A stretch of DNA of 54,553 nucleotides from Candidatus Oscillochloris fontis. GTDB lineage: Bacteria; Chloroflexota; Chloroflexia; Chloroflexales; Chloroflexaceae. The translations under genes and the position numbers were made by a program. Below, piece after piece: positions 24,934-33,227 of the stretch. The notes under the pieces were generated by a model. The model worked only from the letters and a program-made list of their open reading frames with translations, searched no databases and was not told the DNA's origin. Where the stretch lies: contig NZ_RYFD01000029.1 of NCBI RefSeq assembly GCF_004138135.1, positions 1 to 54,553 of the forward strand, written 5' to 3'. Each line of letters begins with the position of its first letter. Position 1 is the first letter of the stretch.

Positions 24934-25602
24934 ATGCTCCACGCCCTCATCTTCGACTTCGACGGCCTGATTCTGGATACCGAGACGCCCAAATACCAGG
25001 CGTGGCAGGAGGTCTTTGCCGCGTATGGATGCGATCTGCCGATGGCGACCTGGGCGCAGGCGGTGGGCAGCAATCAGCGCTTCGATCCCTACCGCTACCT
25101 CGAATCACTCGTGGGGCGCGAACTGGATCACGACACCCTGCGCGCCACCACCCGCGCTCGCTTCCGCGAATTGCTCGGTGTGCCGCGCCCGCTCCCCGGC
25201 GTGGTGGCCTACATCGAGGCGGCGCAGCGTCTGGACATGCGCCTCGCAATTGCCTCAAGTTCGCCGCGCACCTGGATTGACGAGCATCTCAGCACGCTGG
25301 GGCTGCACCACCACTTCAGCATCTTCTGCACCATTGATGATGTGGCGCGCAGCAAACCCGACCCCGATCTCTACCTGTTGGCGCTGGAGCGCCTGGGGGT
25401 GAGCGCGAGCCAAGCTCTAGCCCTGGAAGACTCGCCCAATGGGGTACGCGCCGCCCAAGCGGCGGGCATCTACAGCATCGCCGTACCCAACCCCGTCACC
25501 GCGCAGATGGATCTGCGCCACGCCGATCTGGTGCTGCCGAGTCTGGCGGCGATGAGTCTGGAGGAGGTGGTGGGGCATGCACAAACCCGCCGGTCATCCT
25601 GA
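24934..25602 (+). CDS. HAD-superfamily hydrolase (beta-phosphoglucomutase-like)
   Basis: The 222-residue protein has HAD motif I IFDFDGLILDTE at the N-terminus (nucleophile and acid Asp), motif II IASSSPRTW, motif III lysine in RSKPDPDLY, and motif IV LEDSPNGVRAA. An alpha-helical cap lies between residues about 15 and 90, as in phosphoglycolate phosphatase/beta-phosphoglucomutase relatives. The substrate is unknown. It starts 47 bases after jetD with a poor ribosome site and reads like a separate housekeeping gene. Its stop codon lies inside the tmRNA terminator hairpin. Confidence 0.88.
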   Translation: MLHALIFDFDGLILDTETPKYQAWQEVFAAYGCDLPMATWAQAVGSNQRFDPYRYLESLVGRELDHDTLRATTRARFRELLGVPRPLPGVVAYIEAAQRLDMRLAIASSSPRTWIDEHLSTLGLHHHFSIFCTIDDVARSKPDPDLYLLALERLGVSASQALALEDSPNGVRAAQAAGIYSIAVPNPVTAQMDLRHADLVLPSLAAMSLEEVVGHAQTRRSS

Positions 25603-25610
25603 CCGGCGGG
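25586..25610 (-). terminator. tmRNA terminator, overlapping the HAD stop codon
   Basis: Eleven-base perfect arms CCCGCCGGTCA and TGACCGGCGGG with a 3-base loop, followed on the minus strand by TTTG. It ends the tmRNA transcript. The HAD gene TGA (25600-25602) is in the stem, so it may also end the plus-strand transcript. Confidence 0.8.
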
Positions 25611-25623
25611 CATTGGGTTGAAG

Positions 25624-25989
25624 TGGTGGAGATGGGGGGATTCGAACCCCCGTCCAGAAAGCTGGACCGCAGACATGCTACAGGTTTATCCCATCGTTTG
25701 AGCTCGCCCGCGACCATACGATGAGCAGAACGGTCTTTGGGCAAACCGATTTATCTTAAGCCTAAGCTAACCGGTGTTCGCCTAAGCAGCACCCGACTTG
25801 CTGACGTCGTACCCCCAACCATCAGGTGAATTGAGGACGACGCGCTACCTAATTAGGCAGCGAGGGCCAGGCGCGGAGCCTGAGCCCGAATGTTGTAGTT
25901 GGCAGTTATTGCCGTTGCCCCTTTAACGTGACTGGGCGGCACGACCTGCAATCCACGGCTTGCCCTCCCTGTCGAAGCCAAGCATCCCC
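25624..25989 (-). ncRNA. ssrA: tmRNA (transfer-messenger RNA)
   Basis: This 366-nt RNA has a tRNA-like end. The 5' GGGGATG pairs with CATCTCC near the 3' end (one G-U), followed by ACCA, with a T-arm around GGGTTCGAATCC. The 3' CCA is encoded. The message part encodes the tag ANYNIRAQAPRLALAA followed by TAA (25853-25903 on the minus strand). The LALAA end is the usual ClpXP/ClpAP degradation signal. The AATAACT just before the resume codon fits the upstream element of other tmRNAs. The RNA rescues stalled ribosomes with SmpB. It is flanked by a good promoter and terminator. Confidence 0.96.
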
Positions 25990-29938: not shown

Positions 29939-30010
29939 CTGAAATCTGCTTAGCTTCAGGGGTATAGGGGCGCGTTACGCCGCGCCCCAACAAGGTGTTG
30001 AGGTGTAGCC

Positions 30011-31477
30011 ATTCATACCCAAACGATTATTGTTGGCGGCGGCCTCGGTGGCCTCGCCGCCGCAATCCACCTACGCCGCGCTGGTCACACGGTGCTCCTG
30101 CTTGAAAAGAACCCCCGCCTCGGCGGGAAACTTAATCTCCTCCAGGCCGCAGGCTATACCTTCGATACTGGCCCCTCGCTCTTTACGATGCCCTGGGTGG
30201 TGCGTGATCTCTTCACCGCTGCCGGGCGGCGGGTCGAGGATTACCTCCACCTCGAACAGATCGAACCCACCTGCCGCTACCGTTGGCCCGATGGTACCCG
30301 CTTTGATGCATGGCAGTGCCTCCCCCAACTGATTCAGGAGATTGAGCGCCTCGATCCCACCGATGTGGCCAACTTCCTACGCTTCCTCGCCTATACCGCC
30401 GATATCTATGGCGCGGTGGCCGACAATTTCCTCCTCAAACCCTTCGATGGCATCGCGGAACTGATCACCCCACGTCTGCTGCGCGATGGCCCAAAAATTG
30501 ACGCATTCCGTAGCGTGGATGCGGCGGTTCGTAGCGCCTTTCGCAGCCCCTACCTACACCAGATCTTCAACCGCTACGCCACCTATAACGGCTCCTCGCC
30601 CTACCTCTCGCCCGCCACCTTCAATGTGATCGCCTATATTGAATTTGCCGAAGGCGGCTGGTATATCCGGGGCGGCATGTACGAACTGGCCCTAGCCCTG
30701 CAACGCCTCGCCGAAGAACTAGGCGTCGAGATCCGCACCGATACCCCCGTCTCCGAGGTGCTGATCGAGCACGGAGTCGCCTGTGGGGTGCGCCTCACGA
30801 GTGGCGAACTACTCCGCGCTCGTCAGGTGATCATCAATGCCGACCCACGCTATGCCTATACCCATCTCATCCCCGGACGGGCGCGAACCGCCCAGCGTCT
30901 CACCCGCCTGGAGCCGTCGTGTAGTGGCTTCATCCTCTTCCTCGGTATCAACCGCCACTACCCCCAACTGGCCCACCATAACATCTTCTTCAGCGGCGAC
31001 TATCCGCGTGAGTTTCAGGCCATCTTCCAAAAAGGTGTCCCCGCCGCCGACCCGACCATTTACGTGGCGAGTACGTGTCTGAGTGACCCCCAGCACGCCC
31101 CACCCGGCCACATGAACCTCTTCGTCCTCGTAAATGCCCCCGCGCTCAACCAGCGCATCAACTGGTACCGCGAGGCACCCGCCTACCGCGATCTGATCGT
31201 GGCCAAGTTGGAACGTATGGGTCTGCACGATCTGCACCACCACATCACCTACGAACAGATCTGGACACCCGTTGAGCTCCAGCGCCACTACAATGCCGCC
31301 GGCGGAGCCATCTACGGCCTCGCCTCCAACAACCGCTTCTCGGCCTTCATGCGCCCACCCCTCCAAGCCCCCGATGTGCGCAATCTCTACTTCGTTGGTG
31401 GCGGTACCCACCCCGGTGGGGGCATCCCCCTCGTGCTGCTCTCCGGCAAGGCCGTCGCTGAACGGGTGTTGCAGTAG
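30011..31477 (+). CDS. CrtI-family FAD-dependent carotenoid desaturase/oxidoreductase
   Basis: The protein has about 488 residues. An N-terminal FAD-binding motif IIVGGGLGGLAAAIHLRRAG leads into VLLLEKN. The middle is typical of phytoene desaturase relatives (FDTGPSLFTMPWVVRD). The C-terminal FAD signature is NLYFVGGGTHPGGGIPLVLLSGK. It likely removes hydrogens from a carotenoid precursor at the membrane. The reading frame is closed just upstream (TGA at 29999) and contains no ATG, GTG or TTG before the Rossmann motif. The only good start is ATT at 30011, with GAGGTG 7 bases upstream. A GTG at 30092 would delete the FAD motif. Exact desaturation substrate unknown. Confidence 0.85.
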   Translation: MHTQTIIVGGGLGGLAAAIHLRRAGHTVLLLEKNPRLGGKLNLLQAAGYTFDTGPSLFTMPWVVRDLFTAAGRRVEDYLHLEQIEPTCRYRWPDGTRFDAWQCLPQLIQEIERLDPTDVANFLRFLAYTADIYGAVADNFLLKPFDGIAELITPRLLRDGPKIDAFRSVDAAVRSAFRSPYLHQIFNRYATYNGSSPYLSPATFNVIAYIEFAEGGWYIRGGMYELALALQRLAEELGVEIRTDTPVSEVLIEHGVACGVRLTSGELLRARQVIINADPRYAYTHLIPGRARTAQRLTRLEPSCSGFILFLGINRHYPQLAHHNIFFSGDYPREFQAIFQKGVPAADPTIYVASTCLSDPQHAPPGHMNLFVLVNAPALNQRINWYREAPAYRDLIVAKLERMGLHDLHHHITYEQIWTPVELQRHYNAAGGAIYGLASNNRFSAFMRPPLQAPDVRNLYFVGGGTHPGGGIPLVLLSGKAVAERVLQ

Positions 31478-31478
31478 A

Positions 31479-31545
31479 GGCGAAGCATCGCCCACCAACC
31501 TTGTTCGGGTTCCCCTGATCCATGGAGGGCGATGCTTCACCCCTA
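31479..31545. repeat. Dispersed hairpin repeat, copy 2
   Basis: Arms GGCGAAGCATCGCC (31479) and GGCGATGCTTCACC (31528) begin two bases after the crtI-like stop. It matches copy 1 at 26785 in arms, in the central CATGGAGGGCGATGCTTC segment and in overall length. Confidence 0.7.
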
Positions 31546-31658
31546 CATACCAAAAAAATCCTTTACACTTCCCATATTACCCACACCCACTACAGCACGT
31601 CCTATTTAGTGTTTTTTGATGCATCTCATTCCATTATCGTTAATTTACGATAGATCGC

Positions 31659-31687
31659 TTGATTTTGTCGCATCAGAGTGCTATGAT
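31659..31687 (+). promoter_or_regulatory. Candidate promoter of an intergenic RNA
   Basis: TTGATT-N17-TATGAT on the plus strand, in the AT-richer part of the gap. Transcription would start near 31694, just before the structured region. No open frame with a ribosome site follows. Confidence 0.45.
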
Positions 31688-31693
31688 AATCAC

Positions 31694-32113
31694 GAAGCCT
31701 CAAGAGAACAGTCCACTCTGAGGGAACCTGTACAACCGAAAACGTGCTACTGGAAAGCAAGCGCGAAACTCCAGTGTAAAGTGATTAGCAAGGAGTAAGC
31801 GTAAGTTAGGGGAAATGATCAGACCGTTGATCAAAGAGACTAACGACCAAGCGCCAGATCACTGAAGGAGTGATCGGATGCTCTGCAAGCATAAAGGTAG
31901 CCTCCAACGCCAAGCTCACCGCGTACGGAACAACAATGAACCCTACGCATAGAAATGAGCCATACCCAAAGACAAAAGCTGACATAGCACCGTCATACAT
32001 ACTGTCGTCTGACAGGAGAAGACAAAGGTGCTGCATGGAGGGCGGTCGAGGGTCGCAATGGATAAGTAGGCAAAGCAGGGGAACGATATAACAGAGGTAT
32101 TGAACTCTTGAGG
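31694..32113 (+). ncRNA. Candidate structured RNA (family not recognised)
   Basis: About 420 bases with many local helices. These are 31698-31723 (8 bp, one bulge), 31749-31775 (6-7 bp) and a nested three-part arm at 31799-31854 (GCGU/GCGC, GUUAG/CUAAC, UGAUCA/UGAUCA). Next come 31857-31875 (7 bp), 31878-31892 (5 bp), 31914-31960 (GCUCA/UGAGC plus GCGUA/UACGC) and 32002-32015 (5 bp). CCTCAAGAG at 31698 is also fully complementary to CTCTTGAGG at 32105, a possible closing helix that would exclude the first hairpin. A G-U pair in the nested arm favours the plus strand. Invariant RNase P, SRP, 6S and group II domain V motifs are absent. Confidence 0.3.
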
Positions 32114-32130
32114 TGCCACTCTTGTACGCT

Positions 32131-32211
32131 CGGATGACGGACGATGACGGACTTCGGACTTCGAACTTGACCTTCGGAACTCGGACTTCGGACTCGAACG
32201 CGAACGGACGT
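32131..32211. repeat. Degenerate GACTTCGGA-type tandem repeat
   Basis: Imperfect units related to GGACTTCGGACTTCGAACTT repeat across about 80 bases next to the fabD terminator. Non-coding low-complexity DNA; part of the 811-base gap that holds no convincing gene. Confidence 0.6.
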
Positions 32212-32248
32212 TACGTAAGATCGGACGAAAGAAAGTTAGTAATGACAC

Positions 32249-32283
32249 AGCGGGCCACCGGAGCATATGCCGGTGGCCTCGCT
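32249..32283 (-). terminator. Likely fabD terminator
   Basis: GGCCACCGG and CCGGTGGCC arms (plus AGCG/CGCT outer pairs) around an 8-base loop, starting 6 bases past the fabD stop on the minus strand. The T-tract is weak. Confidence 0.55.
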
Positions 32284-32288
32284 GATTC

Positions 32289-33227
32289 TTAGAGTTGCGC
32301 TACAAACGCCTGGATATCGGCCAAGTTACTTAGTGTAACCAGACGCGCCTGCGGTGCAATCCGCCGCACCAGGCCAGTCAGCACCTTCCCCGGCCCAATC
32401 TCCACAAAGGTCGTGCAGCCATGCGTCAGCATCGCCTCAACCGACGCGATCCAACGCACCGGGGCCGTCACCTGAGCCACCACCTCCTGGCGCACCGCCT
32501 CGGCACTCCGCAGCACCTCAGCCGTCACATTCGCAATCAGCGGGACTTCCAGGTCGCGCACATCCGCATGCGCAATCTCGTGGGCCATGCCCTCTGCCGC
32601 CGCCTGCATCAACGGCGAATGGAAGGCGGCACTCACCTTTAAGCCGAGCACCCGCTTGGCCCCGCACTCCTTGGCGATCTGCCCCGCCTCGGCCACCGCC
32701 GCCGCACTGCCACTGATCACCAGTTGGTCGGGGGCGTTGTAGTTGGCGATTACCACTGTCTCCCCATGATCGCCACGACGCACCTGCTGACAGATCTGCT
32801 CCAGATCGGGTTGCGCGAGGCCAATCACCGCCGCCATACTGCCCTCGTGGGCCGCCGCCATCAACTCGCCGCGCCGCCGCACCAACCGCAGCGCCGTGGC
32901 AAAATCGAGCGCCCCACCTGCCACCAACGCCGAGTATTCCCCCAGGCTGTGCCCCGCCACCGCCAACGGGCGCACCAAGGCCGTACCACCGATCTCCTCC
33001 AACACCCGCACCAGTGCCGTACTCACCGTTAGCAACGCCGGTTGCGCATTCTCCGTCGCCGTCAACGCCGTCTCTGGCCCCTCAAAGCAGAGGTGTGAGA
33101 GCGAAAACCCCAACACCTCATCGGCCTGATCAAAGACCGCCCGCGCCGTCGGAGAGTGTACGTAGAGATCATGGCCCATGCCGACCGCCTGCGAGCCCTG
33201 GCCTGGAAATACCCACGCAGCGTTCAT
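32289..33227 (-). CDS. fabD: Malonyl-CoA:ACP transacylase FabD
   Basis: The 312-residue enzyme moves malonyl from CoA to acyl carrier protein for fatty acid synthesis. Hallmarks are the oxyanion segment FPGQGSQAVGMG at the N-terminus, the nucleophile motif GHSLGEYSAL (Ser), and AAFHSPLM carrying the catalytic His. The length fits the family. It is downstream of fabH in the same orientation, separated by a dispersed hairpin repeat. The start has an AAGGAT ribosome site. Confidence 0.96.
   Translation of the reverse strand: MNAAWVFPGQGSQAVGMGHDLYVHSPTARAVFDQADEVLGFSLSHLCFEGPETALTATENAQPALLTVSTALVRVLEEIGGTALVRPLAVAGHSLGEYSALVAGGALDFATALRLVRRRGELMAAAHEGSMAAVIGLAQPDLEQICQQVRRGDHGETVVIANYNAPDQLVISGSAAAVAEAGQIAKECGAKRVLGLKVSAAFHSPLMQAAAEGMAHEIAHADVRDLEVPLIANVTAEVLRSAEAVRQEVVAQVTAPVRWIASVEAMLTHGCTTFVEIGPGKVLTGLVRRIAPQARLVTLSNLADIQAFVAQL

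Follow-up and report, generated by a model that had tools for sequence, protein, structure and literature searches.

A structured RNA gene with its own promoter-like element, located behind crtI in Candidatus Oscillochloris fontis and conserved in Chloroflexales

In the stretch of DNA analysed (hereafter the window: 54,553 nucleotides of Candidatus Oscillochloris fontis contig NZ_RYFD01000029.1), an intergenic gap extends from 31478 to 32288, between the end of a crtI-family open reading frame and the convergent fabD gene; the original prediction gave its length as 811 bases, which is exact. Located in this gap are a palindromic box, a sigma-70-type promoter, a structured RNA and a GC-rich hairpin (Table 1). 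The RNA starts around 220 bp after crtI, on the same strand, with its 5' end inferred to lie 6-7 nt past the -10 element. The start of the crtI-family gene is uncertain, the open reading frame call beginning at GTG 30092 and the frame with the FAD-binding motif opening upstream. Within 30001-30100, this motif lies 5' of the first ATG, GTG or TTG (30092), and no standard start codon is present between the preceding stop (29999-30001) and the motif; therefore, translation probably begins at an unusual codon, for example ATT at 30011. A further conserved DNA motif, TTTACAC and its surroundings (31560-31570), is located downstream of the crtI stop codon and upstream of the box, about 75 bp from the latter in the window; by eye, it is present in most of 16 homologous loci, including L003-L012.

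Table 1. Coordinates of the features at the RNA locus (window numbering) and of the second RNA form in relatives.
Feature	Position	Strand	Remarks
crtI-family (phytoene desaturase family) gene	30011-31477	+	TIGR02734, E = 3e-117, above cut-off, for 30092-31477
Palindromic operator-like box ATCGTTAATTTACGAT	31636-31651		ATCG-N8-CGAT form, 5' of promoter
Sigma-70-type promoter TTGATT-N17-TATGAT	31659-31687	+	-35 31659-31664, -10 31682-31687; TG before -10
Core RNA, about 420 nt	31694-32114	+	Conserved P1 5' strand to P1 3' strand in homologues
P1 closing helix, 10 bp	31697-31706 with 32105-32114	+	Pair 31705:32106 significant against tree-based null
Inner basal helix (less certain)	31733-31737 with 32069-32073	+	RNAalifold, 33 sequences
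Central domain	31746-31901	+	Closed by long-range helix 31746-31752 with 31895-31901
Layered arm	31763-31800	+	31763-31764/31799-31800 and 31769-31772/31791-31794
Helix GTTAG/CTAAC with purine internal loop	31801-31848	+	31805-31809/31840-31844; hairpin 31816-31822/31827-31833
Most conserved hairpin	31850-31882	+	31850-31863 with 31869-31882
3' domain arm	31914-31960	+	31914-31917/31957-31960 and 31921-31925/31944-31948
3' domain long arm	31971-32047	+	31971-31989 with 32029-32047; RNAalifold and covariation
GC-rich terminator-like hairpin	32252-32279		Some 137 nt beyond P1; may serve both directions, fabD being convergent
fabD	32289-33227	-	Convergent neighbour; TIGR00128, E = 1.7e-101
Type B RNA copies	L122:3998-4121, L123:4822-5021, L124:4683-4819, L125:4063-4198, L126:4316-4500

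A blastn search with 31690-32125 against 40 relatives and the own genome gave strong matches, the best (E = 2.6e-62) from the same genus; in the own genome the RNA is present as a single copy, also according to the covariance models described below. The core was found in Oscillochloris sp. ZM17-4, Candidatus Chloroploca asiatica, C. mongolica and several MAGs (17 stretches), and 16 oriented loci align across both the RNA and the promoter. Some of the carrier genomes we take to be Chloroflexus- and Roseiflexus-like. Homologous RNAs are 339-422 nt long, those of L056 and L082 being longer.

The two ends of the RNA are joined by P1, which begins about 9 nt after the -10 element. A 9-bp closing helix had been proposed, alternating with a local hairpin. 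The helix is real, although with ten base pairs rather than nine, and at least seven contiguous pairs are found in 45 of 46 homologous RNAs. Its sequence differs among clades with the pairing retained (GCCTCAAGAG/CTCTTGAGGC, GCCTCGAGAG/CTCTCGAGGC and CCCCAGGG/CCCTGGGG). For this count the partner was taken as the best helix of many offsets, which favours long helices; L052 and L085 were set by hand. The idea of alternating folds was rejected: homologues do not retain the local 5' hairpin that would compete with P1, whose 5' strand makes at most five contiguous local base pairs in 42 of the 46 RNAs (bulged hairpins were not scored).

Inside P1, both partners vary in each of the three inner basal pairs 31735-31737/32069-32071, with 83.7% of cells paired. 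The closing helix of the central domain contains the pair 31748:31899, significant against a tree-based null, and six of its seven pairs have changes on both sides. The central domain also contains the three-layer arm of the original prediction, real at about 31763-31800 and variable in length, with 97% of cells paired in its outer helix and 84% in the inner one. In the adjacent GTTAG/CTAAC helix, pairs 31807:31842 and 31808:31841 are significant against the same null, and the family consensus of the purine internal loop is GGGAAA opposite GGGAGA. GGGAAA is present on the 5' strand in 36 of 48 loci, its terminal AAA in all 48, and GGGAGA on the 3' strand in 25 of 48. The most conserved hairpin follows, in which pair 31860:31872 is significant and 10 of 13 pairs show both-side changes (48 distinct rows). 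In the 3' domain arm the outer helix hardly varies, so covariation backs mainly the inner one.

RNAalifold on the 16 oriented cores gave 37 consensus pairs, of which 21 changed on both sides in that alignment. When 50 model matches (48 distinct rows) were aligned, 30 of these 37 core pairs changed on both sides; the share of paired cells is 94.1%, falling to 30.6-41.6% once partners are slid, and the covariation score drops from 0.458 to 0.049-0.094. This alignment (A4) was fitted to the structure and contains two duplicate records. Aligning 33 full-length Chloroflexaceae RNAs with MAFFT (A5) extends the consensus to 85 retained pairs in 19 helices, bearing out the multiple hairpins that had been noticed; 52 of these 85 preselected pairs changed on both sides, and 93.1% of cells are paired, against 32.7-38.7% when slid. 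The 85 pairs were kept from 112 predicted ones mainly for being at least 70% canonical, so the percentage paired is flattered. G-U and U-G combinations (197) outnumber A-C and C-A (53) at paired cells, which supports the plus strand.

A custom tree-based null (40 simulations) was applied to 42 full-length RNAs (alignment A3, which omits six of the 48 loci: L076, L077, L078, L079, L056 and L082). Five pairs, including the long-range 31748:31899 and one P1 pair, reach E <= 0.05, and all five are at least 95% canonical. Of the 60 top covariation scores, only 16 belong to pairs that are at least 90% canonical; clade effects are thus present in the score. Compensatory changes in Chloroflexales homologues, proposed as a check, are abundant, with five pairs passing the stricter null. 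Comparison of folding energy with shuffled sequence, also proposed, gave a modest result for the window RNA alone (z = -1.97, 5 of 100 shuffles equally good) and z = -2.99 for the 418-nt core. Across the family the energy is better than shuffled, with a mean z of -4.47 over 46 homologous RNAs and 42 of them below -2; the exceptions are L052, L053, L069 and L085. Neither of these two checks thus refuted the candidate. The 46 RNAs of this set, also used for the P1 and downstream-hairpin counts, are 44 of type A and two of type B, a diverged second form; L056 and L082 are excluded. Type A genomes G025, G031, G040 and G057 are outside the promoter, P1 and z-score sets.

The promoter TTGATT-N17-TATGAT, already noticed in the original prediction, is by itself at chance level (one found, 0.8 expected), yet it is kept at fixed spacing in homologues, with consensus cTTGatt...TGCTAt.AT over 37 loci. 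The ATCG-N8-CGAT box is present upstream of the -10 element in all 46 extracted type A loci and in neither of two type B loci. Its distance to the -10 is identical in 37 of the 46 (all 37 distinct), and the combined consensus for those is ATCGTtAA....CGAT.aA...cTTGatt.t....c.t.....TGCTAt.AT. The box is probably the site of a DNA-binding regulator, the existence of which is inferred. In the own genome, box plus -35 are matched without mismatch at the RNA locus only. Sites resembling ATCGTNAA-N4-CGAT-N6-CTTGA, with at most three mismatches, number 27 in this genome, against 5 for the reversed pattern; the excess may reflect a small regulon or base composition alone.

On the 3' side, 37 of 46 loci have a GC-rich hairpin 11-234 nt beyond P1, a count that lacks a shuffled control. 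The hairpin of the window probably belongs to the RNA gene; its T-run is weak, and it is absent from the list of the terminator scan. Between P1 and this hairpin, 32133-32199 is a degenerate tandem repeat (GATGACGGAC, CGGACTT), and in its place the tails of relatives are similar by eye, being GTACG..CGTCGG-rich. In L133 (4366-5004), a transposase-like frame, identified by eye, enters the RNA gene antisense from downstream, which suggests an insertion directly behind the RNA.

The genomic context is largely constant. Of the 46 type A loci tested, 43 have crtI 5' of the RNA and in the same orientation, as do three further f2 loci, in one of them at a distance of about 2 kb; in one genus (L059, L085) the RNA lacks an upstream crtI. 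The convergent neighbour downstream is fabD or an SDR-like gene.

Covariance model R1, built from the 16-core consensus, matches 46 of 82 genomes of the order Chloroflexales and 28 of 400 genomes of the phylum, all within the order. The wider model R2 matches 51 of the 82 (35 of 41 in family f1, 5 of 6 in f2, 1 of 9 in f3 and 10 of 26 in f4) and 31 of the 400, of which 30 are within the order; both phylum-sample searches were run under stricter filters. The lone match outside, at E = 0.037, was treated as chance. Two weak additional R2 matches are inside the order, G069 at E = 0.029 and G044 at E = 0.057. The RNA family thus spans four families of Chloroflexales. Type B was found in seven f4 genomes, which we presume to be Roseiflexus-like: in six alongside type A and in G068 alone, the assignments in G069 and G070 resting on a model match only. 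Neighbouring the five copies in Table 1 is an SDR gene, 78-100% identical to that of L122; beyond it lies purL in L122 and, by eye, similar frames in the other four. The copies L078 and L079 (the same places as L124 and L123, respectively) lack the box and have z of about -8 to -9.

Not all relatives carry the RNA beside crtI. In a crtI search of 25 genomes, most without a type A match, 21 loci were inspected downstream, by pattern over up to 1500 bases and by eye over the first 900. No box, promoter and RNA were seen downstream of crtI in the 16 relatives' loci with enough sequence; left out were L141, which ends at once, L144 and L147, which end within 800 bases, and L134 and L142, from genomes whose RNA is elsewhere or further on. 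With an identity of only 47-48%, crtI in the five g21 loci is possibly a non-orthologous gene; in G011, G057, G065 and G068 the crtI search gave 33-37% matches only. Given these 16 loci with crtI and no adjoining RNA, members of the order can apparently do without it. A strict link to phototrophy was considered and rejected. The reaction-centre family PF00124 is present in 64 of the 82 order genomes (63 above cut-off), with RNA but no PF00124 in five f2 genomes, G033, G007 and G057, and PF00124 but no RNA in most g21 genomes, six f1 genomes and others. Since the RNA and the photosynthetic reaction centre do not strictly co-occur, the distribution of the RNA points to no pathway.

No Rfam 15 family accounts for the RNA in the gap. 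At gathering score, Rfam 15 has nothing in the window except a tmRNA (RF00023; 25624-25989, minus strand), which is outside the gap; ARAGORN places a second tmRNA call, probably spurious, at 25225-25720 on the minus strand, overlapping the true one. The whole library (4227 families), run on the gap to E = 10, returned only a chance snoRNA on the opposite strand (E = 7.2). Ten homologous loci scanned to E = 5 gave seven sub-threshold matches and none above threshold, two touching the 3' part of the RNA (OmrA-B in L073, E = 4.5; SNORD44 in L082, E = 0.97). Chloroflexi-1, OLE, ROOL, GOLLD, raiA, HEARO and the group I and II introns were unmatched in both scans; apart from Chloroflexi-1, we assume all of these to be contained in Rfam 15. 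A covarying fold in homologues and the lack of an Rfam 15 match uphold the candidate as a novel structured RNA.

That the gap contains the gene of a real structured non-coding RNA we regard as practically certain. It is not a 5' leader, since the next gene is convergent, and action in trans, which is inferred, is highly probable. As an overall explanation we consider it likely that the locus is a structured non-coding RNA gene with its own promoter, belonging to a new Chloroflexales family, and that the product is the trans-acting RNA of a ribonucleoprotein; transcription and function are both inferred. In such a scheme, the promoter behind the box would start the transcript, of which the first bases would enter P1, and a regulator would probably sit on the box. 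P1 would tie the 5' and 3' ends, and the body of about 420 nt would fold into a central and a 3' domain. The GC-rich hairpin would probably end transcription; the 3' tail beyond P1 must then be trimmed or tolerated, termination and processing being inferences as well. Most likely, the RNA would act in trans by forming the structural part of a complex with protein, with the conserved core (the purine internal loop and the neighbouring hairpin) as a putative binding site in it, and the cell could presumably live without it. Among trans modes of action, we lean slightly towards this scaffold role; it rests on analogy and the conserved internal loops only, no partner protein or target having been identified, and protein binding remains an inference.

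A trans-acting regulator, whose structured body presents a seed for pairing with mRNAs, for example of the carotenoid or fatty-acid genes nearby, would be consistent with the operator-like box at the promoter and with the stable place beside crtI. Most of the RNA, however, is locked in conserved helices, the conserved unpaired stretches are short (by eye) and the RNA does not strictly accompany the reaction-centre genes; this is the alternative that survives best, and we still think it unlikely. Next comes an ornate RNA that needs no protein, either a homo-oligomer, as reported for OLE, ROOL and GOLLD, or a monomeric tertiary fold like raiA, precedents described in PMC12286853. The size, the density of covarying stems and the A-rich conserved loops would suit it, but there is no Rfam match and no direct evidence for an oligomer, leaving it doubtful.

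The location of the RNA, in the same orientation as crtI and some 220 bp beyond it, could also suggest a cis-acting element, either a crtI 3' UTR or the leader or attenuator of a neighbour. Against the former stands the conserved promoter that separates the RNA from crtI, and a leader or riboswitch would have to be in the 5' UTR of its target gene, whereas the downstream gene, here and in homologues, is on the opposite strand. Moreover, six genomes carry both forms, each at its own locus, and one genus has the RNA without crtI upstream, making a cis element very improbable. Even less credible is a peptide-coding or dual-function RNA. The prediction that no good open frame is present holds: although frames of 27-110 amino acids can be read in each of 46 homologues, the longest ones differ in place, length and sequence, and none conserved across the family was seen (judged from the longest frame of each RNA, without a codon test). 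An ATG in the conserved hairpin (MLCE...) is common to some closely related members, whose frames are of unequal length; covarying pairing along the whole RNA argues against coding. A diverged housekeeping RNA or intron copy, despite a length and paired ends reminiscent of RNase P, can be set aside given the near-empty Rfam scan and the presence in the genome, outside the gap, of 6S RNA (RF00013, above cut-off), the bacterial small SRP RNA (RF00169) and a full-length RNase P candidate (contig G000:C92, E = 4.6e-22, 73 bits, below the curated 100), besides the tmRNA of the window; as predicted by eye, the RNase P, SRP and 6S motifs are lacking here, the models RF00010, RF00013, RF00169 and RF00023 having no match in the gap to E = 10.

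Few large structured RNAs have been retained across much of a bacterial order; of those known, a number are ribozymes, cores of ribonucleoproteins or unusual particles. The fold described here is kept across much of Chloroflexales, an order of green filamentous bacteria, and the RNA has apparently not been described before; the new family would give Rfam an entry with a good seed alignment. Its clear promoter, candidate regulator site and absence in some relatives make the RNA well placed for experiment. More speculatively, types A and B might constitute a new class of large RNA, type A having a dedicated transcription factor and a tertiary fold of its own, i.e., a new ribozyme or self-assembling particle; we consider this possible rather than probable.

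OLE, ROOL and GOLLD are larger than the new RNA. For these three, RNA-only self-assembly has been reported and raiA is named as a monomer, according to PMC12286853; with all four the new RNA shares the character of a large, intricately structured bacterial RNA with stems backed by covariation. It differs from them in having no Rfam match and in being found, here, in one order only, mostly beside crtI. The published literature on Chloroflexi RNAs, as far as it was available (PMC2864571 and PMC2996960 in part, subscription journals mostly not covered), yielded no report of this RNA. PMC2864571 lists Chloroflexi-1 RNA (RF01698) for Chloroflexus aggregans, likewise a structured RNA candidate from the same phylum. 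However, the RF01698 model has no match here, and the new family occurs in four families of Chloroflexales. RNase P RNA has paired termini and long-range helices, features that the new RNA shares together with a similar length, but the RNase P candidate of the genome is on another contig and RF00010 does not match the new RNA. 6S RNA is independently transcribed, as inferred for the new RNA, and consists of one long hairpin; the new RNA, in contrast, is multibranched, and 6S is encoded elsewhere in the genome. The RNA is a new family of a known general kind, the large structured non-coding RNAs of bacteria.
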